NCBI GenBank assembly: GCA_016219285.1
Contig: JACRNJ010000009.1
Span: 1 to 49,619, forward strand
Source of the DNA: Deltaproteobacteria bacterium
GTDB lineage: Bacteria; Desulfobacterota; GWC2-55-46; UBA9637
Direction: 5' to 3'
Length of the DNA: 49,619 nt
The notes beneath the pieces were generated by a model, which saw only the letters and a list, made by a program, of their open reading frames with translations, did not search any database and had not been told where the DNA came from. Below are positions 2,172 through 37,846 of the stretch, in pieces. The position numbers were made by a program, and so were the translations under genes. Positions within the stretch are counted from its first letter, which is position 1. Each line of letters begins with the position of its first letter.

Positions 2172-2330
2172 TGAACCTCCCCATGGCTAAAGCCAGGGGG
2201 TTCTAACGGCAAGGCCAATCATCTCTTTGCGGCTCTCACTCTTTAGAGCTACAGCATCCGCAACCTTGATGGCGGTCGATCCGTCTTTAACGGGCAAACA
2301 GCTCTGTCTCCGTGGTATCCCGAAGCTTGC
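2172..2330 (-). ncRNA. Probable omega RNA at the 3' end of tnpB
   Basis: In characterised IS605 systems the transcript of the tnpB 3' end and right end forms the omega RNA that guides TnpB, with the guide read from host DNA just past the right end. Here the right-end hairpin at 2179-2200 is intact. A guide would begin at 2171 on the minus strand (GCGTAATAACC), inside the PIN pseudogene. The upstream limit is arbitrary; only the hairpin is seen directly. Confidence 0.35.
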
Positions 2331-3698
2331 AGGCACAGGCCCACAACTTGCCGTTTCTGTGATCCTTGACATCGCCCGTCGCAACAGCGGTTCCGCAGCC
2401 GACCAGGCAGCCTTCGCCTGGTGTATGTCAAGGATATGATTACTACAATGTTTTGCGAGGTATGCCGAGAATAGATCCCGCTGCGCTTGAACTCCGCAGA
2501 TACAGGCATGATGCCGTTGTTTTAGCGGCTTCTTCTCTACAATACCACAGATGCAGGTCTGCGACAGTTTTGTTGCCTTGATGTTGATATCCTCTACACT
2601 TCCGCCAGCATTTGCAGCTTTGCGAGTGAGCATTGAAACAAACATCCCAGGGGCACGAACTGTCACACTGCGACCATAGTTTTTCTGAAACGATTTATAA
2701 GACAGCTTCTCGGTCTTGATGTTCTTACCAAGGCCAAGAACCTTGTTGCACATCTGGCCGTGCTGTTTTTTTCTGGTTGTCGTAAGCCTTCTTTGACATT
2801 CTGCAATCCGGTACTGACGCTTCTTGTAGCGACTCGAGCGATGCCACTTGCGGGATCCCTTTTTCGCGGTGCTGTCTTCGTTGTAGTTATCGGGATTCGT
2901 AGCTCTCCTGCTCCTGTCCTGCGCCCTTTGTTCCCGTTTGATATCTTTCCACGGTTGCATTACTTCGTAGCAGAATTGAGAAAGGAAGGCATTATCTTCA
3001 CCTACGGCAGCGATGGTGGACGGGCCTATGTCCAGGCCGCAGGTATCGTCTGATATGTCATTCTTCGTTTTCTGGTGCGGCGTGCCTTCAAGGACAAGTT
3101 GTACGAACCAACGTGGTTCACCGATGACGGTACGCTTTACGAGTCGCAGGTACTTCACCCTGCAGGTCAAGGCATGGGCTTCGACTCCGTGCTTGTCCTT
3201 GAAGTCAAAGATAGGCATGAGTGTTAAGCCGCTCCAGAGAACACGGCCATCCCGCCAGCGAATACCGGAGGCATTGCTTTTGCCTTCTACGGAAGTGAGC
3301 CAACCTCTGCGCTTGAATCTCGGTTTACCCCGTGCGCCATAAGCGTACTGCCGGACAGCATCAAAAGCTCTGGAGGCGATTGTCTGGATAGTGAACGCAT
3401 CGAGATGGTCACCTATCCAACAGGCTTTGCAGGTCTTGGCTGCAAAGGGATGAAGTGTATACTCCAGAAACCCGTGAGTTTCCCTGCACTCCTTAAAAGC
3501 CTCGTTGCGTACCTTGCCCTTCGGTAGATGCCTGGCCATCTGGTAGTGTTTTGACTCCCGCATAAGATCAAAACGTAGCAGCGACTCCCGGAGACAGGCG
3601 TTGTATAGATTCCGTGCTGCCTCCAGGCGTACGTCAAGTACCGCCAGATCATGAGGCGTTGTTTTGAGTGGTATTTCATGGATAAAGGTATCGGTCAT
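2187..3698 (-). CDS. tnpB: TnpB RNA-guided nuclease of the IS605 element
   Basis: A 503-residue TnpB, somewhat longer than the usual 350-450. RuvC-like residues can be seen in order: Asp in CGLDIGPS (about 222), Glu in IKTEKLSYKSF (about 335) and Asp in QRDLFSAYLAKH (about 410). Between the last two lies the zinc-finger segment, with CICG twice (TCICG, HACICG) in place of the common CxxC pairs. TnpB is a single-effector RNA-guided DNase that cuts the empty donor site and helps the element persist. Its start codon overlaps the tnpA stop by four bases, indicating coupled translation. The C-terminal 70 residues run through the right end and are probably not structured. Confidence 0.88.
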   Translation of the reverse strand: MTDTFIHEIPLKTTPHDLAVLDVRLEAARNLYNACLRESLLRFDLMRESKHYQMARHLPKGKVRNEAFKECRETHGFLEYTLHPFAAKTCKACWIGDHLDAFTIQTIASRAFDAVRQYAYGARGKPRFKRRGWLTSVEGKSNASGIRWRDGRVLWSGLTLMPIFDFKDKHGVEAHALTCRVKYLRLVKRTVIGEPRWFVQLVLEGTPHQKTKNDISDDTCGLDIGPSTIAAVGEDNAFLSQFCYEVMQPWKDIKREQRAQDRSRRATNPDNYNEDSTAKKGSRKWHRSSRYKKRQYRIAECQRRLTTTRKKQHGQMCNKVLGLGKNIKTEKLSYKSFQKNYGRSVTVRAPGMFVSMLTRKAANAGGSVEDINIKATKLSQTCICGIVEKKPLKQRHHACICGVQAQRDLFSAYLAKHCSNHILDIHQAKAAWSAAEPLLRRAMSRITETASCGPVPASFGIPRRQSCLPVKDGSTAIKVADAVALKSESRKEMIGLAVRTPWL

Positions 3699-4087
3699 TG
3701 GCTCTTTTGGTCTTCAATGTATTGTTTAATGATGGATAATGGCGCACCGCCGACCGTGGATACAAAATAAGAGTTTGTCCAGAGTGTCGGCAGCCGGGAT
3801 TTGATGGAGCTGAATTCCTGACGGAGTATCCGGGATGTTTGCCCCTTGATTTGTTTCACCAACCGGTGGATGCCGTATTGAGGATCGACCTCAATCAGAA
3901 GATGCACATGGTCCGGCATGACTTCTAACTCAAGAATACCCGATTGATGGTCAATAGCAATTTGCCGGATCAGTTTTTTGAGTCTATCAGCTACTTCGCC
4001 GGTCAGCACCTTTCTCCGGTATTTTGGACACCAGACGACGTGGTATTTACAAGAGTAGACAACATTGTTGTTGCTTTTGTATTCCAC
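3695..4087 (-). CDS. tnpA: TnpA, HUH/Y1 single-strand transposase of IS200/IS605
   Basis: A 130-residue Y1 transposase. The HUH metal-binding pair is in MPDHVHLLIEV (about residues 59-69), and the nucleophile tyrosine is in IIKQYIEDQ (about 119-127). It cuts and rejoins single-stranded ends at TTAC-type targets, copying itself with the help of replication forks. The start is a GTG at 4087. In the shorter relatives at 17.6 and 23.6 kb the same start is preceded by a promoter and left-end hairpin; both are absent here, so expression is doubtful. The first ~45 codons are what the two miniature derivatives retain. Confidence 0.9.
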   Translation of the reverse strand: MEYKSNNNVVYSCKYHVVWCPKYRRKVLTGEVADRLKKLIRQIAIDHQSGILELEVMPDHVHLLIEVDPQYGIHRLVKQIKGQTSRILRQEFSSIKSRLPTLWTNSYFVSTVGGAPLSIIKQYIEDQKSQ

Positions 4088-4375: not shown

Positions 4376-5416
4376 ATGTTTAAACCTAATTTTCATTATA
4401 CAGATAAGATTGTAAGTGATATTGCCCATATTGCCGCTGACAGGGAACTTATTCTAAACTCTCCTTTTATTCCGAAATGGGAAGTATCTTTACGGAGAGA
4501 AGCGATTATTCGCAGCGCTCATTCCTCCACAGCTATTGAAGGAAACAGACTTTCACTCGAACAGGTGAGCGAATTGGCACATGGACGTAAGGTTATGGCG
4601 ACCCGAAAGGATAAGCAAGAGGTCGTAAATTATCTCAAGACTTTGGAGTCAATTGATAAATTAACCGATGGCAAGAATATTGCCGAGAAAGACCTTTTAC
4701 AAATCCATAAGATGCTAACACAGGGAGTTCTGGATGATCCTTCTGACTGCGGCGTTTATCGGAATCGTTATGTAGTAATAGGCAATAGGCTGACGGGGAA
4801 GGTTGTTTTTAGGCCGCCATCAAACGAAAATGTCCCGAATTTAGTCAAGGCATTAATTGCATGGCTGAATTTTCCGAAAGCATCGCTTGACCCTGTCATT
4901 GAGGCCGGCATAGCTCATTATGAATTTGTAAGAATCCACCCCTTTATAGATGGCAATGGAAGAACATCCCGCGTTCTTGCTACTCTGATACTTTATCTGC
5001 GTGGCTTTGATGCCAAGCAATTTTTCTGCCTGGATGATTACTATGACTTGGACAGACCTTCTTACTACAAGGCATTGCAAAGCGTAAATCAGGAGACCCT
5101 CGATTTGACAAACTGGCTTAACTATTTTGTTGAGGGCGTTAAGTTGAGTATTGCTTCTGTTAAGGAGAGAGTGATAAGGCTTAGCAGCGAAAGATTAAGA
5201 AAGACTAAGAAGGGGCAGATTGCATTAACTGAAAGGCAGATGAGGATTGTGGAATTTATAAATCAGAATGAGAAAATAGCAAATAAAGATATAAGGGAAA
5301 TGTTCAAAATTTCCTCTCAGGCTGCGCATAAAGAGATCGTAAAACTGGTGAAATTGGATGTGATTAAACCAGCCGGAAAAGGAAGGAGCCTTTCTTACCA
5401 ACTAAAGACGGGTTGA
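4376..5416 (+). CDS. Fic-domain protein with N-terminal inhibitory motif and C-terminal winged helix
   Basis: A 346-residue class II Fic protein, expected to transfer AMP (or another nucleotide part) to a protein hydroxyl. The catalytic motif HPFIDGNGRTSR lies at about residues 188-199. The auto-inhibitory motif S/TxxxEG/N is present near residue 50 (STAIEG), where its Glu normally blocks ATP placement. After the Fic fold, residues about 285-345 form a winged-helix segment (LTERQMRIVEFI, then NKDIREMFKISSQAAHKEI), suggesting DNA binding and autoregulation. The ribosome site is weak. It is the first of three Fic genes within 6 kb and is followed by a strong terminator. Confidence 0.9.
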   Translation: MFKPNFHYTDKIVSDIAHIAADRELILNSPFIPKWEVSLRREAIIRSAHSSTAIEGNRLSLEQVSELAHGRKVMATRKDKQEVVNYLKTLESIDKLTDGKNIAEKDLLQIHKMLTQGVLDDPSDCGVYRNRYVVIGNRLTGKVVFRPPSNENVPNLVKALIAWLNFPKASLDPVIEAGIAHYEFVRIHPFIDGNGRTSRVLATLILYLRGFDAKQFFCLDDYYDLDRPSYYKALQSVNQETLDLTNWLNYFVEGVKLSIASVKERVIRLSSERLRKTKKGQIALTERQMRIVEFINQNEKIANKDIREMFKISSQAAHKEIVKLVKLDVIKPAGKGRSLSYQLKTG

Positions 5417-5500
5417 CGATTTAATTGATGATTTGGTTGATGATTAGTTGCTGCGAAATAAAGCATTAACCCACTCACCACAAATTTAAGCCGCAGCATG

Positions 5501-5537
5501 AAGGCCTGTTAAGGATAAAACCTTAACAGGCCTTTTT
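5501..5537 (+). terminator. Strong hairpin terminator after the first Fic gene
   Basis: A 14-bp perfect stem starting AAGGCCTGTTAAGG (5501-5514) pairs with 5521-5534 around a 6-base loop, then T-rich sequence. Confidence 0.8.
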
Positions 5538-5575
5538 ATTTTTTAACACCCATATTTTAGAAAGGAGGTATTCAA

Positions 5576-6589
5576 ATGTTAAGTGAACTAAAGACCGGAG
5601 ATAGTGTCAATCAGGCTGTCATAGTCCGGAAGATTTCGGTCAGGACGATACGCAACGGCAGCATTTTAACCAGTTTCATTTTTGAGGATAAATCAGGGGC
5701 AGTTCCAGGAGTTTTATGGGATGCGCCTGATTGCAAAGACGGAGATGTTGTCACGCTTGCCGGAACGGTTGGATATTATGACGGCGGCGTACAGGTTCAG
5801 GTGGAGGGAGTTGAAATAATCCCACCCGACAAGGTATCTTCGCTACTTCCTTTGCTTATTGCGTCCTCAAAAATGACAAAAGAAACACTCGTAAGAAGAA
5901 TGACGGAACTGATAGGAAAAATCAAAAGTCAGGAAATCCGTTCTTTTGTTTCTTCTCTTTTAAGCGATAACGATAGCTTTTACCAGTCCCCGGCAGGCAA
6001 GAGGCTGCATCATGCATGGATAGGAGGTCTGGCAGAACATACTATTTCTGTGGGCCGGATTGTGACCGGTGCAATGTCGCTCTATCCATGGATTGACGCC
6101 GATATAGCGATGGCAGGTGCTTTGCTGCACGATATAGGCAAAACCAGAGAACTTGCTCTGTCGCCGTCAATAGAATATGGAGACACAGGGCGTCTGCTTG
6201 GGCATATTTACATTGGCGCCCAGATGGTAAATGTTCACAGAAGCAAGTCTCCTGTATCTACAGAATCGCTTGAGGATATTATCCATATCATACTCTCTCA
6301 TCATGGAGAGAATGAGTTTGGCGCGCCTGTAAAACCTGCCACCCTTGAAGCTCAACTTGTGTATCTGGCTGATAAGATGGACTCCGGTATGTTGCTCGCC
6401 AAGGGTTTGACAGACAGCGATAACACCCCCGGAAACTGGACAACTTTTGATCGTGTGGTGGGAAGGAGCTTTAGAAAGTCAGGCGCTGTAAAACTTGCCA
6501 ATAAAGAGAGGGGTATCGAGGGTGGGCCAGAGCCGGCGGTTATAAATTCAGAGAAGGCAAAAGATGACAGTGATGATGTTCCATTTTGA
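5576..6589 (+). CDS. OB-fold plus HD-domain nuclease/phosphohydrolase (YhaM-like) with SSB-type tail
   Basis: 337 residues. The N-terminal part (about 1-85) is an OB-fold nucleic-acid-binding domain. The HD domain follows: H in GLAEHT (about 158), HD in LLHDIGK (about 187-188), LGHIY (about 210) and LSHH (about 240), giving the metal ligands of HD hydrolases. The layout matches YhaM/CBF1-type 3'-5' exonucleases. The last residues, KDDSDDVPF, resemble the acidic tip of bacterial SSB (here the SSB ends DDDIPY), which recruits repair proteins; this is not a usual YhaM feature as far as I know. AAAGGAGG precedes the ATG at 5576. Likely acts on DNA or RNA ends; substrate unknown. Confidence 0.85.
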   Translation: MLSELKTGDSVNQAVIVRKISVRTIRNGSILTSFIFEDKSGAVPGVLWDAPDCKDGDVVTLAGTVGYYDGGVQVQVEGVEIIPPDKVSSLLPLLIASSKMTKETLVRRMTELIGKIKSQEIRSFVSSLLSDNDSFYQSPAGKRLHHAWIGGLAEHTISVGRIVTGAMSLYPWIDADIAMAGALLHDIGKTRELALSPSIEYGDTGRLLGHIYIGAQMVNVHRSKSPVSTESLEDIIHIILSHHGENEFGAPVKPATLEAQLVYLADKMDSGMLLAKGLTDSDNTPGNWTTFDRVVGRSFRKSGAVKLANKERGIEGGPEPAVINSEKAKDDSDDVPF

Positions 6590-6630: not shown

Positions 6631-6678
6631 TTGACCTCTGAAGCGAATATCTGCTATAATCGCTTCATATTTTGAAGC
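6631..6678 (+). promoter_or_regulatory. Promoter with overlapping inverted repeats before the second Fic gene
   Basis: TTGACC (6631-6636) and TATAAT (6655-6660) are 18 bases apart. GAAGCG at 6640-6645 pairs with CGCTTC at 6661-6666, bracketing the -10 box. GCTTCA (6663-6668) pairs with TGAAGC (6673-6678). Three half-sites in this position look like an operator, plausibly for the winged-helix part of the Fic protein itself. Confidence 0.6.
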
Positions 6679-6693
6679 AATTAAGGAGAGCAT

Positions 6694-7800
6694 ATGCCTC
6701 ACTATATTTGGCAACGACCGAACTGGACATCCTTCCGATGGAATGCCGATGTGGTTCTTCCGATAATAAGTGAATGCCGTATGCGTCAAGGCAAGCTGCT
6801 CTGCAGGGTTTCTTCTCTCGGCATAACGTTGGAACAACAGGCACAGGCTGAGATTGCTGTTGAGGAGACTGTTAAGACCGCAGCCATTGAGGGGGAGAAC
6901 CTGTCCAGAGAATCAGTGCGCTCTTCAGTGGCGCGAAGGCTGGGGCTCCCGTCTGCAGGTCTGCCGGTAGACAGGCATATTGACGGCTTGGTCAGCGTCC
7001 TCCTTGACGCAACCCGAAACTTTGATGCCCCGCTTACAGTAAAGAGGGTTCACGGCTGGCATGCAGCGCTGTTCCCCACGGGTTATTCAGGCTTACATAA
7101 GATAAGGGTAGGGAAACGGCGGGGTGCGGAATCTATGCGCGTTGTTTCCGGCCCTGTGGGGAAAGAAAAGATACATTTTGAGGCGCCGCCATCAAATCGG
7201 ATAGAAAAAGAAATCCGTCATTTTTTAGCCTGGTGGGAGAAGGAAAGAGGAAAGACCGAGGGATTACTCCGGGCAGCCATTGCCCACTTCTGGTTTGTAA
7301 CTATCCATCCATACGAGGATGGCAACGGGAGGCTTGCCCGCGCCATCACTGACATGGCCATAGCACAGGACGATGGACAGCCGCTGCGCTATTACAGCCT
7401 TTCTGCCCAGATTATGGCGGAAAGGGATGCCTATTACAATGCCCTTGAGCGGTGTTCAAAAGGTGAAGGTGATATTACAGAATGGCTTTCATGGTTTTTT
7501 GCCTGCTTTTCAAGGGCGACAGAACGTTCTGAAAAAATCCTTTCCATTGTTTTTGATAAGGCCGGTTTCTGGAATAAACATGCAGGGACTCCGCTTTCAG
7601 AACGGCAGAAAAAGGTTGCAAACCGTCTCCTTGACGCCGGAAGAGATGGTTTTGAAGGCGGACTCACAACCAGAAAATATGTCTCTATGGCAAAGGTGAG
7701 CCGCGCCACCGCATTCCGTGAAATTGAACAACTCCTTCAATCAGGCATACTACGCAGGAGGCCTGGCGGCGGAAGGGGTCAAACTTTAAAGCCTTGGTAG
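6694..7800 (+). CDS. DUF4172/Fic-domain protein with C-terminal HTH
   Basis: 368 residues. The N-terminus (PHYIWQRPNWTSFRWN) is the DUF4172 segment common in larger Fic proteins. The inhibitory motif TAAIEG is near residue 64. The catalytic motif HPYEDGNGRLAR starts at about residue 205. The C-terminal end (about 300-365) contains TTRKYVSMAKVSRATAFREI, a helix-turn-helix. AAGGAG precedes the ATG, and a promoter with three GAAGC/GCTTC half-sites lies immediately upstream, consistent with self-repression. Sequence is clearly different from the Fic genes at 4.4 and 9.1 kb, so it is not a simple duplication. Confidence 0.9.
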   Translation: MPHYIWQRPNWTSFRWNADVVLPIISECRMRQGKLLCRVSSLGITLEQQAQAEIAVEETVKTAAIEGENLSRESVRSSVARRLGLPSAGLPVDRHIDGLVSVLLDATRNFDAPLTVKRVHGWHAALFPTGYSGLHKIRVGKRRGAESMRVVSGPVGKEKIHFEAPPSNRIEKEIRHFLAWWEKERGKTEGLLRAAIAHFWFVTIHPYEDGNGRLARAITDMAIAQDDGQPLRYYSLSAQIMAERDAYYNALERCSKGEGDITEWLSWFFACFSRATERSEKILSIVFDKAGFWNKHAGTPLSERQKKVANRLLDAGRDGFEGGLTTRKYVSMAKVSRATAFREIEQLLQSGILRRRPGGGRGQTLKPW

Positions 7801-9031: not shown

Positions 9032-9063
9032 GTCCTGCCGGGAACTTACGGCAGGGCATTTTG
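9032..9063 (+). terminator. Terminator-like hairpin before the third Fic gene
   Basis: CCTGCCG (9034-9040) pairs with CGGCAGG (9049-9055); a short gap and TTTTG follow. Confidence 0.5.
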
Positions 9064-9111
9064 CTTTACTTATTACTGGACTTATACTATACTTTCAAGA
9101 AAGGAGGTATT

Positions 9112-10116
9112 GTGCCGTACGAACCGAAATATACCATCACAACCCATCTCATGGGGTTGATTGAGAGTATCTCCTCTATGAGAACAAAGATTGACATCTC
9201 GCCAATCTCGCTTGCATGGATACCACGGTTGACTAAAGAAGCATTTTCAAGAATGGCCCATTCATCTACAGCTATAGAAGGCAATCCTTTAACCTTGAGA
9301 GAAGTCAGGATTCTATCTGAAGGTGGAACTCTTCCCCATACCAAACCTCGTTATGTACAGGAAATCTTCAATTATTTTGCCGCCCTAAAACACGTTTCAG
9401 ACAACAACCAAAAAGAAAAGATACTTGAAGGCGATGCGTTGAAACTTCACGTCTTAATAGGCAAGGATGCATTAGACAGAGAGCCTGTCGGTTCATACAG
9501 GACGTATCAGGTGTATGTGGGGGGACATAAACCGCCAAAGGCGGCAGATGTTCCAAAATTGATGAAAGAATTGTTAGAGTGGCTCAATACAAAGGGACGT
9601 TTACTCCCTGCGGTAATCAGCTCTGCAATTCTGCATTATCAATTCGAATACATCCATCCTTTCGGCGATGGCAACGGAAGGGTAGGAAGGGTGTTGGCTA
9701 CATGGGAATTGTATAGAAAAGGGCTTGATACCCACCACATATTTTCTGTTGATGAGGTTTACTGGGAAAACAGGCAGAGATATTATAATGCATTAGATCT
9801 TGTGAGGAAGCAAAAGGGCGACCTTACAGGTTGGTTGGAGTTTATTGCCGAGGCAGTGGAATTGTCGCTGGAAAGGGCGCTGCAAAGGGTTGAGAGCATA
9901 AGGGCATTAAAAGAGGATAATAAGCCGTTAATTCTTCTGCCAAAGCAAGAAAAACTTCTTCACCTCATAAAAAGTTCCCCATTATCAATCAAGGAAATCC
10001 AGTCTGAATTAAAGGTTACCAAATCCGGCGCCCACTTTCTTATAAAACCTCTCATAGAGGCAAATCTCATTAAAAGAGTGGGAGGTCACAAAGCAGGAAA
10101 ATATATAATAACTTAA
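9112..10116 (+). CDS. Fic-domain protein (third), GTG start
   Basis: 334 residues from a GTG at 9112; AAAGGAGG at 9100-9107 fixes this start in preference to an ATG 51 bases upstream that would precede the ribosome site. The inhibitory motif STAIEG is near residue 55. The catalytic motif HPFGDGNGRVGR starts at about residue 182. The C-terminal segment (about 275-330) contains LSIKEIQSELKVTKSGAHFL, a winged-helix region. It is closer to the 4.4-kb protein in layout than to the 6.7-kb one. It ends seven bases from a convergent radical SAM gene. Confidence 0.9.
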   Translation: MPYEPKYTITTHLMGLIESISSMRTKIDISPISLAWIPRLTKEAFSRMAHSSTAIEGNPLTLREVRILSEGGTLPHTKPRYVQEIFNYFAALKHVSDNNQKEKILEGDALKLHVLIGKDALDREPVGSYRTYQVYVGGHKPPKAADVPKLMKELLEWLNTKGRLLPAVISSAILHYQFEYIHPFGDGNGRVGRVLATWELYRKGLDTHHIFSVDEVYWENRQRYYNALDLVRKQKGDLTGWLEFIAEAVELSLERALQRVESIRALKEDNKPLILLPKQEKLLHLIKSSPLSIKEIQSELKVTKSGAHFLIKPLIEANLIKRVGGHKAGKYIIT

Positions 10117-21705: not shown

Positions 21706-21966
21706 ATGACAAGAATCAGCAAAGATATGTGGATTTATCCAGACGGAAGGACAATAGTTGTTCAGCCGGGAGAGCAGGTTGCCGGAGCGAAACTCTACTA
21801 CGGCTATGACTATGAAAACCAGTTCTGGGTTGAAAAAAGCGAGCTGGTGCATCATGCCCTATGCGGGAAGTTAACAGATGCGATTGGAAGGGTATGGAAC
21901 GGCCCGTGCAATGCATGTGAATACCTTAAAAATTCTAAAAACAAAGGAGAAAAACCATGTCAGTAA
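21706..21966 (+). CDS. Unknown protein between dut and ssb
   Basis: 86 residues, TCAGGAGG upstream. Aromatic/acidic segment [18 protein letters not shown] and two Cys pairs later ([15 protein letters not shown]). Possibly a small zinc-binding protein. It overlaps the ssb start by ten bases, so its translation is coupled to SSB. No family recognised. Confidence 0.55.
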
Positions 21967-22385
21967 ATAAAGCCATTCTTATAGGCAGACTGGGTAGGGA
22001 CACCGAGATTAAATATACAACAAGCGGAATGGCCATAGCAAACCTCACTATAGCCACCAGCGAAAATTACAAAGATAAAGACGGCCAGAAACAGGAAAAA
22101 ATAGAATGGCACAGGATTGTAGCCTTTGGCAAGCTTGCAGAGATATGCGGCGAATATCTTTCAAAAGGCAAGCAGGTATATGTCGAAGGCCGGATACAGA
22201 CACGAAGTTGGGAAGATAAAGACGGCAGCAAGAAGTATATAACAGAGATTGTCGCAAATAGCATGCAGATGCTTGGTGGAGGTTCGGACAAGGGGAAGGT
22301 GGAAGAGGGGAAGGGGAAAGAAGGTATGCCGGGAGAAGCTGCTCCAAATCCGGCAGCAGTAAAAGATGATGATATTCCTTATTAA
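21957..22385 (+). CDS. ssb: Single-stranded DNA-binding protein
   Basis: 142 residues. The OB-fold starts [20 protein letters not shown], with [28 protein letters not shown] and [15 protein letters not shown] in the usual order (about 1-105). The linker is Gly/Lys/Glu-rich, and the tip is DDDIPY, close to the canonical DDDIPF that recruits repair and replication proteins. AAAGGAG is upstream. It coats single-stranded DNA during replication and should interact with the helicases and SbcCD encoded here. Confidence 0.96.
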
Positions 22386-33805: not shown

Positions 33806-35346
33806 ATGCAAAAACCGGAATGCATAGAAAGGTTTAAAGACATGTATGAGGCGTCCATAGCCCATACGTTTCTCTTCCACGGGGCTACGTATGATTATGT
33901 GGAAGAGTTTAATACATTAAAACCATATCTCTCCTCTTTGCTAACGGCTGCGGGCAAAGAGGTTGTTTATTATAACAGGTCGGAAGGCATAACATTCTGC
34001 ACTGAAAAGGGACGCCAGTTGTTTATGAGCGCAGTTGCTCCCAGCGCTGTCGCATTTCCAGGCATGAGCGGGACTCAGTCCCCTCTGCCCAAGGAGCCTG
34101 TGGCTGCCCTGGAACTTCTTGAGGCGGCGCTCAAGAAGAACCCAAAAGAGGCTGCCCCTGATGATGCGGTTTTCAGGGGGTTCAGTGTCGTTATTGAATA
34201 TGCCGATACTATATTTCCTCCGGGGGACAGTCTCGGCGGAGAGGATAGAACAGCCCTTGTTACGATTCTCAGGTGGGCCAAAGATCCTGTCATAGCCGGC
34301 CTGGGCAATATGGTAATCATGGTGGCATCGGCAAAGAACAGGGTTTCGGCGCCCATTCTGGAGGCCAGCTCCAGAATAGAGCCTATAGCCGTTTCACTGC
34401 CTTCCAGACAGGACAGAGAGAAATTCCTGAAGGCCGCCAAAGGCAAGTATAGCTACAAACTGGAAAAAGGATTTTCAGACGGCGAGTTTGCCAATCTTAC
34501 TGCAGGGCTCGGCAGGATACATGTTGTGGATATTATCATGAGGGCCAAAAAGGACGGGGCTCCTATAGACAAAGACCTTATCAAGAGAAGGAAAGATGAG
34601 ATAGTCTTGTCTGAATACGGCAATGTCCTGCAGATAAGGACTCCTGAGTGGGGGTATGAGGCTATAGGCGGGATGGAATATCTTAAAGACTTTATGCGGA
34701 AGTCAGTTATAAAACCCCTTATGGATGGCAATTCAAAAAGAACTCCTTTGGGGATATTGATGTGCGGGCGCCTGGCACAGGGAAGACTGCTCTGGCAGAA
34801 GCGACTGCAAAAGAGGCCTCTGTAAACTTTGTCATCCTCAATATGGCGCGCATTTTTGACAAATACGTGGGGGCCACAGAAAGAAACCTTGAAAGGGCGT
34901 TTGAGGCCATTGAGTCTTTGCACCCCACTATTTGCCTTTTAGATGAAATTGACCAAGCCATGTCCAGAGGAGGCGGCGGAGACTCCGGGGTGTCAAGCAG
35001 GGTCTTTAAAAGGTTTCTTGAATTCTCATCAGATACTACCCATAGGGGAAAGGTCGTTTTTCTGGGCGCTACGAACAGGCCCGACACTATTGACCCGGCC
35101 ATGAAAAGGTTCGGGCGGTTTGATAAAAAGATAGCCTTTATGCCGCCTGCGCCGGAAGAACGGGCTATGATTCTAAAGGCCGTTGCCGAAAACAAACTTG
35201 GCATAGAATCAAGGCTTTCAGATGAGGATTATAAAGAGGCGGCCCGTCTGACGGATAAATGGGTCGGGTCTGACCTTGAGGGGGCTATTATAAAAGCGTA
35301 TGAAGCGGCAGAGGATAACGGGAGAGTGCGACTTGAAGTTGAATAA
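33806..35346 (+). CDS. Ycf46-like AAA+ ATPase, frameshifted in the Walker A region
   Basis: The first frame (33806-34825) carries the N-terminal ~310 residues: SIAHTFLFHGATYDYVEEF, then FRGFSVVIEYADTIFPPGD and GNMVIMVASAKNRVS, the degenerate first half of Ycf46-type proteins. It loses frame in the P-loop. Adding one G to the run at 34766-34768 yields LMCGAPGTGKTALAEATAKE, and the second frame (34762-35346) gives Walker B TICLLDEIDQAM, sensor 1 VVFLGATNRPD and Arg fingers KRFGRFDKK. AGGAGGA precedes the start. Likely the motor of the Ycf35/DUF2997 set. C-terminal coding continues past a TAA at 35344 and a group II intron. Confidence 0.75.
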
Positions 35347-37846
35347 ATGATTGTTTCTAAAGGAAAAATTCCTTTAATGAAGCCCACTGTTTTCCCAGTG
35401 CGAACCTATCCATACAGGCGTTTACAGTAATGAATTCGTCTGAAGCTATGGAGACAAAGTAGCTTAATCTGCAAGCACAAATGCAGAAAAGACGCTGGTT
35501 AGAATGACATGGTTAACATATGTAAACTGCTGATAAACACCGTTATATCCGAAAAGCCAAATGTGCTGACAGGCTTTAGCCAAAAGGCAAATAGTCAGAT
35601 ATTGTCTTTCTCCCTGACAATACGGAAATAAAAGACTATCGGTGAATAGGCAGAACCTAACTCATTCATATCATTTATTCAGAACAAGGTAAGCCCTTAT
35701 TTACGCCTCAAAAGGCAGGCAGACCGCAAGGAATGCTGTTGTAAATGAGGGTATAGGAAATCGGAAAAAGCAAAGGCCGTCCTGTAATAAGACGGATAGG
35801 GATTGAAATATTATCCTGCCCGAAAGGGAGCAGACTTCCGATAGGTCTGTAATAACGAGATAACTTAAAGAACCCTTAAAGGAGGGAAAGCAAATGAAAG
35901 CAGAAGTTTTAAATTCAGCTTGTGCACCCTCCAATAGAGAGGCTGCATGGCACAGTATCAACTGGGCAAAATGCAGCCAAAATGTTAAAGGGCTGCAAGT
36001 GCGTATCGTTAAGGCTACGAAAGAAGGCCGCTGGAATAAGGTGAAAGCCTTACAAAGGCTGCTGACTCACTCTTTCTCAGCAAAAGCAACCGCTGTCAGA
36101 AAGGTGTGCGATAACAAAGGCAGTAAAACTTCTGGAGTTGATAAACAAACATGCTCAACGCCGGAAGACAAATCCAAAGCAGTAATTGAACTCAAAATCA
36201 AAGGATATAAACCAATGCCTTTGAAAAGAGTATATATCCCAAAAGCAAATGGTAAGAAGAGACCTTTAAGCATACCTACCCTAAAAGATAGGGCAATGCA
36301 GGCTCTCTACCAGTTAGCCCTTGACCCAATTTCAGAGACATTAGCTGACAAAAACTCATATGGCTTCCGCAAGGAAAGGGCAGTAAGCGACGCTATAGAA
36401 CAATGCTTTATTGCTCTCTCCCAAAAGAACCAAGCAAAATGGGTTTTAGAAGGTGATATCAAAGGATGTTTTGATAATATATCACACAAGTGGTTATTGC
36501 AGAACATACCTATTGACAAGAAAGTTCTGAATAAATGGTTAAAGGCGGGATATATAGAGAAATCAAGGCTATTCCCAACAGAAGATGGAACGCCTCAAGG
36601 TGGAATTATCTCGCCTACACTGGCTAACATGACTCTGGATGGGCTTGAAAGGAAACTAAAGATATTTAAAGATAAGAAAGTAAATCTCACCCGATATGCA
36701 GATGATTTTATAATTACAGGAGCAACAAAAGAAATCCTTGAAGAAATCCAGAAAGTGGTAGAACTACACTTACAGGAAAGAGGATTATCTTTAAGTCCTG
36801 AAAAGACTAAAATCACTCATATCACAGACGGTTTTGATTTTTTAGGTCAAAATGTAAGGAAATATGGAGATAAACTTCTAATTAAACCTGCTAAAGAAAA
36901 TTTTAGCAATGTCTATAAGAAGATTAAATCTGTCATCTCCAACCACAAGACCTCAAAGCAAGAAGTCCTTATTATGGAATTAAATCCCATAATAAGAGGA
37001 TGGGCTGACTTTCACAGACATATAATATCTAAAGAATCCTACTCTAAATTAAATGCCTGGATTTGGAAAGCCCTATGGCAATGGTCAAGGCGCAGACATC
37101 CAAACAAACCTATCAAATGGATAAAAGAGAAATACTTTTTGAAAATTGATAACAGAAATTGGGTGTTCGGATGTGAAGTTAAAGAAGATAATGAGATAAG
37201 GATTTACAAACTTATCAATGCTTCTGATACAAAGATAAAACGACACATCAAGATAAAATCAGATGTAAATCCCTATGACATGGATTGGGAACTTTATCTG
37301 GAAGAAAGATATTCAAAAAAGATAAAGACTGACCCTGATATAGGGGATAGAGTTAAAAGTCTTTTGATAAGGCAAAAGGGGATATGCCCTGAATGCAAGC
37401 AAAAGATAATTACCAGAGAGGATGAGCGAAATATTCATCATAAAACATTTCGTATCCTTGGCGGTAAAGATACTCTGGATAATCTGGTTTTACTGCATGG
37501 AAATTGCCATAGAAAACTGCATAGTAATTATCAAAATCGTAATCGGTCAGCGAAAGTTGGCTAATACAGGCTTGAGCCGTGTGAGGGGAAACTCTCAAGC
37601 ACGGTTCTTAGGGGAGGGGGGAGTAGTAATACTTCTTCCTTACCCGACAACTATATTGCTGCGGAAGACCTTATATACGCCTCAACTGCACTTAAGCCCG
37701 ATTTCTCTACTACGGAATATTACACGCTTCTTGCCCTGAAAGAGGTTAACGACTTAAGCCTGCTTCCGCCTCAGTATCGCAAGATGAGCCAGGGGAAAAT
37801 AGATGAGAGGATAGAGGAGCTGAGGCCTGTGTCAAGAAAGCTATAA
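35347..37846 (+). CDS. Short coding region split by the group II intron (likely ATPase C-terminus)
   Basis: Upstream of the intron, 35347-35397 reads [17 protein letters not shown]; after it, 37649-37846 reads [20 protein letters not shown] to VSRKL and TAA. The phase is preserved exactly across the intron. The second part ([21 protein letters not shown]) resembles the C-terminal helix of the AAA+ protein just upstream, but a TAA at 35344-35346 separates them. So this is either an 82-residue protein with its own ATG, or the ATPase end cut off by a nonsense change. Confidence 0.55.
35894..37564 (+). CDS. ltrA: Group II intron reverse transcriptase/maturase with HNH endonuclease
   Basis: 556 residues. 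RT domain with YADD in [18 protein letters not shown] (about 270-287), [20 protein letters not shown] (RT block 2-like), and [17 protein letters not shown]. Domain X (maturase) spans about 340-420. The C-terminal HNH endonuclease, CPECKQKI...NIHHKTF...[15 protein letters not shown], is complete. It helps the intron splice and drives retrohoming. GGAGGG precedes the ATG, so it is probably translated from the unspliced RNA. Confidence 0.95.
37574..37607 (+). ncRNA. Domain V of the group II intron
   Basis: GAGCCGTG and GGAAAC loop, then CACGGTTC: a 34-base hairpin with the catalytic AGC-type triad at its base, as in group II ribozymes. Confidence 0.85.

Follow-up and report, generated by a model that had tools for sequence, protein, structure and literature searches.

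A YhaM-like OB-HD protein with an SSB-type C-terminal tip encoded on a probable mobile element of a deltaproteobacterium

YhaM, or cmp-binding factor 1, is a 3'-5' exonuclease of the Firmicutes with the domain order OB-HD. It is treated chiefly as an exonuclease of RNA, and explanation is lacking for the earlier connections to DNA, an exonuclease activity on ssDNA and the name cmp-binding factor. The beta-clamp-binding motif is QL[SD]LF or QxxLF, and no description of either a clamp motif or an SSB-like tip on YhaM was found in the open-licence literature. Bacterial SSB proteins carry acidic residues followed by a terminal PF on a disordered linker that extends from an OB-containing core, and these acidic tails can fold back to gate substrate access. 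Published reports describe the terminal Phe and Pro of the SSB tip as decisive for partner recognition and the linker as a spacer (PMC10164576), YhaM as a 3'-5' exonuclease active on ssDNA whose deletion from B. subtilis did not raise mutagenesis (PMC5627055), and yhaM as one of the genes that co-evolve with polC, a relationship that was read via an RNA degradosome (PMC3814617). An SSB-like C-terminal motif has likewise been described in a non-SSB protein, DdrB of Deinococcus, which is described as being without an OB fold and whose purported motif is reported to be dispensable for radioresistance (PMC3834827).

The stretch of DNA analyzed here, called the window, is 49,619 nucleotides long and is the entire contig C3 of a 2.28-Mb deltaproteobacterial genome. 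It encodes ribonucleotide reductase, dUTPase, SSB, dNMP kinase, and SbcC- and SbcD-like proteins, together with helicases, an ATP-dependent ligase, a Gp3-like protein, and a DnaG zinc finger, which by sequence are genes of the kind that a large phage or plasmid uses for replication. From this replication-type gene set we infer that the contig is a probable mobile element. No structural genes were recognized among the contig proteins tested, and no exact terminal repeat of 15 to 500 bases was present on the contig. The gene under study, at positions 5576 to 6589 of the plus strand (stop included), starts with ATG, stops with TGA, and encodes a protein of 337 amino acids ending in KAKDDSDDVPF. 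Direct reading of the sequence placed a ribosome-binding site, AAAGGAGGT, at 5561 to 5569 (+), and a strong terminator-like site with a 15-bp stem lies at 5500 to 5535 (+), between an upstream Fic gene and the YhaM-like gene; it was one of two such sites found, compared to a mean of 1.2 in shuffled sequence. Within the protein, an OB-fold domain was assigned to residues 22 to 82 (5639 to 5821, +) by Pfam PF01336 above its cut-off and by the structural model, and an HD domain to residues 153 to 269 (6032 to 6382, +) by PF01966 above its cut-off and by the ligand residues. The model places a disordered linker at residues 312 to 329 (6509 to 6562, +), and the SSB-type tip DDSDDVPF makes up residues 330 to 337 (6563 to 6586, +).

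The sequences of known structure closest to the window protein were two YhaM chains, 9h3f (E value of 1.1e-36) and 9o7t, and the top-ranked Foldseek match was also YhaM (9h3f_A; probability of 1.00, TM score of 0.89 on the target, and 1.9 A over 208 columns). The AlphaFold model, built with 41 sequences, had a mean pLDDT of 91.3. Across the alignment of 41 sequences, residues H145, H155, H185, D186, H237, H242, and D266 were invariant, and conservation was at least 90% at H210 and H243, both of which are present in the window protein; these nine residues are candidate metal ligands of the HD domain. The window protein thus has the domain order, fold, and metal ligands of YhaM, with about 30% identity to it, and differs from it in a disordered tail that bears an SSB-type tip. 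The two solved YhaM chains are 313 to 321 amino acids long and the match to them stops some 30 residues or less before they end, so that this comparison covers all but their last residues. Residues 3 to 294 matched the NCBIfam YhaM equivalog NF010007 with a score of 147.4 bits, far below the cut-off of 460, for which reason we class the protein as YhaM-like rather than as YhaM and treat any activity carried over from the Bacillus and Staphylococcus enzymes as an assumption. Taken together, the fold and the retained HD ligands identify it, by sequence and model, as a YhaM-like OB-HD protein with a free tail, and predict that it is probably an active nuclease.

The last secondary structure element of the model ends at residue 311, and the 26 residues that follow form a disordered C-terminal tail along which pLDDT falls from 69 to 35, with residues 326 to 337 below 50. 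In the monomer model the acidic tail of this OB protein is disordered and unattached. It could serve self-regulation by folding onto the basic surface with which its own OB or HD domain, or that of a neighbor in an oligomer, binds nucleic acid, and gating substrate entry. We consider this unlikely, since gating requires acid and not an exact PF end, and since the model gives the tail no ordered structure. The initial annotation had described the tail as SSB-like, and this was borne out by its end, DSDDVPF, with an acidic run, a penultimate Pro, and a terminal Phe behind a disordered linker. The terminal PF, the preceding acidic residues, and the linker following an OB-containing core are therefore common to bacterial SSB and the window protein, but the core of the latter is a nuclease-type HD protein with no SSB match in Pfam: domain PF00436 was absent from it and was found in the window at 21957 to 22382, in the element's own SSB (21957 to 22385, +; used for comparison only). 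DdrB, by comparison, is not known to be a nuclease.

We examined how special this tip is within the host genome (G000). The DNA pattern for [DE][DE][LIVMF]P[FY] followed by a stop had five matches in the 2.28 Mb, compared to two for a reversed control. Three of the five were the in-frame ends of real ORFs, namely those of the host SSB (TDEDVPF), the element SSB (VKDDDIPY), and the window protein (DSDDVPF). The tip had initially been likened to that of the element SSB (DDIPY); its assignment to the SSB type stood, but the closest match did not, because the type found in the host SSB (xDVPF) fits better. Among background ORFs, which were called mechanically (n = 550, each of at least 200 amino acids), the strict tip occurred in 1 of 550, and when residues were drawn at random from the composition of the protein's own last 36 residues it arose in 49 of 2,000,000 draws. 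These values bear on a reading in which the tip is a coincidence, a solvent-exposed acidic tail ending in VPF by chance on an ordinary YhaM-like nuclease, with no partner for the tail. Speaking against it are the low yield of the composition-based draws, the restriction of the tip to the SSBs and the window gene in this genome, and the presence of the tip on an OB-fold protein whose element also encodes an SSB and other replication genes. On the other side, the motif was picked for the initial annotation after the whole window of genes had been viewed, and both the relatives and unrelated class proteins described below lend coincidence some weight. We judge it possible but not probable.

The type of tip was then compared across the host class. 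At the loci examined, which came from 62 class genomes, 56 tip-bearing ORFs were SSBs, plus L168; the SSB label was assigned by a simple regular expression, L168 was added by eye, and L194, with a cut SSB end, was counted as short. This class-wide scan covered part of the matches, leaving out, for example, G036:C165, G006:C110, and most of those with TGG as the last codon. The tip ended in PF in 55 of the 56 class SSBs, the exception being the element's own SSB, which ends in PY; the window protein therefore carries the host type of tip. The greater likeness to the host SSB (xDVPF) than to the element SSB (DDIPY) would also suit a decoy, an abundant protein that occupies host SSB-binding proteins and blunts repair or recombination directed against the element, with nuclease activity secondary. 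All of the HD ligands are retained, however, and a pure decoy would not need them; we regard this explanation as improbable.

Several class ORFs other than SSBs also bore the tip. These included a TIR protein (L178), a protein named by eye as HIT-like (L180), two proteins without assignment (L192 and L195), and a helicase C-terminal fragment ending in ELPDEYDDVPF (L174:14-1045, -). An abortive-infection-like protein of the AbiJ_NTD4/DUF7014 type (L128:1504-2568, -) ends in DDYDDIPF and is a defense protein with an SSB-type tip, and L160, from a second genome and in a different frame, has a related tail, LDEDIPF. One of the viral contigs with a YhaM-like gene also encodes, at L046:5612-6490, an unassigned 293-amino-acid protein ending in GDDIPF. 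Some of the tip-bearing class ORFs other than SSBs may be real tip users and some are likely due to chance; L131, L164, L165, and L182, which are short or without assignment, look like chance frames. The acidic PF ends shared by the unrelated TIR, HIT, and Abi proteins count in favor of coincidence in the window protein as well.

To our analysis of relatives, four sets of YhaM-like tails contributed: 52 complete class tails (54 minus the cut-off L264 and L265), those of the 28 best-scoring phylum relatives with a locus, 38 from a genome collection (49 loci minus the 10 weakest, L113 to L122, and the cut-off L094), and 22 viral tails (29 loci, with the 7 weakest, L061 to L067, outside the count). 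The strict tip was present in 0 of 52, 0 of 28, 0 of 38, and 0 of 22 of these, respectively, and the ends of the seven weakest viral loci also had no tip. The initial annotation knew of no such tail in standard YhaM proteins, and its absence from all 140 complete tails of YhaM-like relatives agrees with this; the same absence favors coincidence. All of the relatives are distant, with identities of approximately 36% or less over the full length and up to 39% over shorter stretches. A looser, tip-like end, DADPDHPPF, was found in Tautonia sociabilis (L106). Scanning the proteins of viral and genome contigs yielded no close relatives, and tblastn matches in phages and plasmids, whose tails are outside the tail counts, were all below 35% identity. 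No sister elements were found using the 757-amino-acid helicase; with the Gp3-like protein there were none in viral contigs and matches in four other class genomes, the three strongest of which (G042, G026, and G062) each had a single YhaM match, on another contig, and hence no sister copy. Since none of the relatives bears the tip, selection on it would be conjecture, and a single sequence leaves coincidence with the lesser probability given above.

In a quick tree, 35 chromosomal class rows formed one side of a branch with a support of 98 and the window protein fell on the other side, among viral rows in a mixed group of weak support; its branch is long and its placement unsure. A second YhaM-like gene is present in the same genome, at C22:8554-9465, with 33% identity. 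Without gaps, the last 75 bases of the window gene were identical to the element ssb at 36 of 75 positions and to the host ssb at 27 of 75. Gapped scores of the tail DNA were more than 3 SD above those of shuffles, but the element and host ssb genes scored about as high against each other, and the likeness of the tail DNA to ssb genes may follow from the shared peptide.

The tails of the cellular relatives gave an unexpected result. With the window protein set aside, [LM][FW] lay within the last 14 residues of 51 of the 52 complete class tails, compared to 45 of 550 background ORFs, and 38 of 52 had [LM]x[LM][FW], compared to 5 of 550; because relatives share descent, these and the following tail counts are not independent. 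Examples from the class are SDAELELFKK, GNLNLFK, and PEDLDLFSR, and the linkers that precede them vary in length and sequence. In the phylum set, Qxx[LMI][FW] was present in 9 of 28 tails (for example, LNQFDMFEDRR, PRQKGLWG, and SPQRTLF) versus 2 of 550 in the background, and LF occurred in the last 14 residues of 17 tails, with 11 of 28 lacking any LF. The genome collection had the Q form in 4 of 38 tails (such as RQSTLFGS and RQHNLF) and LF in 14 of 38. In viral relatives each of the longer motifs was found in 0 of 22 tails and LF in 3 of 22, so that this tail is mostly absent. In cellular YhaM-like relatives a variable linker thus leads to a terminal LxLF or QxxL[FW]. These ends resemble, in sequence, the sliding-clamp-binding peptide, with the difference that where the peptide has Q, tails of the host's class mostly have E, N, T, or G; the window protein lacks the motif and has an SSB-type tip in its place. 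L028:1474-2514 is one host-class cellular YhaM-like locus of the kind whose proteins end in the clamp-like LF motif. A tip that is kept behind a poorly alignable linker looks like a docking peptide, and judged from these ends, short docking peptides seem to sit at the C termini of the YhaM-like family, clamp-like in many cellular copies and of the SSB type in the element copy.

The function that we propose as the likeliest for the window protein, and to which we give an even chance, is that of an element-encoded YhaM-like exonuclease held at forks or ssDNA by a host-type SSB tip that attaches it to SSB-binding proteins. By analogy with the YhaM family, its core of OB and HD domains would engage RNA or DNA at a single-stranded 3' end and shorten it from there, and the tip would dock, as the tail of SSB itself does, in the pocket in which PriA, RecO, and other SSB-binding proteins receive the SSB tip. 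Because the SSB tip binds the partners of SSB and not SSB, we predict PriA, RecO, and similar proteins as its targets, and both PriA and RecO_C were found above their cut-offs in the host genome. Docking would place the nuclease at the forks, primers, or ssDNA that arise in replication of the element, and cellular relatives would be tethered in the same way by another, sliding-clamp-like peptide (LF or QxxLF). The presence of these LF and QxxLF tips in cellular relatives makes a fork or ssDNA localization of the window protein more plausible, and the reported dispensability of the DdrB motif calls for caution about its SSB-like tip. The reading initially put forward for this protein, localization at the fork or competition with SSB for partners such as RecQ, PriA, and ExoI, is partly supported, plausible, and unproved, and is refined here to a host-type tip and to partners of SSB rather than SSB. 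The clamp-like tips of cellular relatives and the SSB tip of the element copy together predict that these nucleases act at replication forks, and the former make a fork role of the family testable. More tentatively, and with some doubt, we suggest that YhaM-like nucleases outside the Firmicutes may be replisome tethered through exchangeable docking peptides, of the clamp type in cells, with a host-type SSB tip redirecting the element copy to host SSB-binding proteins during replication of the element. If true, the element copy would show a non-SSB enzyme making natural use of an SSB address label.

Other features of the window were also noted. Three Fic-domain genes surround the YhaM-like gene (4376 to 5416, 6694 to 7800, and 9061 to 10116), and a near-consensus promoter (11 of 12 positions, with TG before the second hexamer) lies at 6631 to 6660, ahead of the second of them. 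An IS200/IS605-like pair of TnpA-like and TnpB-like genes, recognized by eye, adjoins the Fic region at 2187 to 4087. An AAA+ ATPase frame is apparently split into two overlapping ORFs, at 33806 to 34825, which had no Pfam match, and 34762 to 35346, which matched AAA-type PHROGs, and is a possible frameshift. A reverse transcriptase or maturase-like ORF with an HNH-like end, at 35894 to 37564, was judged by eye to belong probably to a group II intron.
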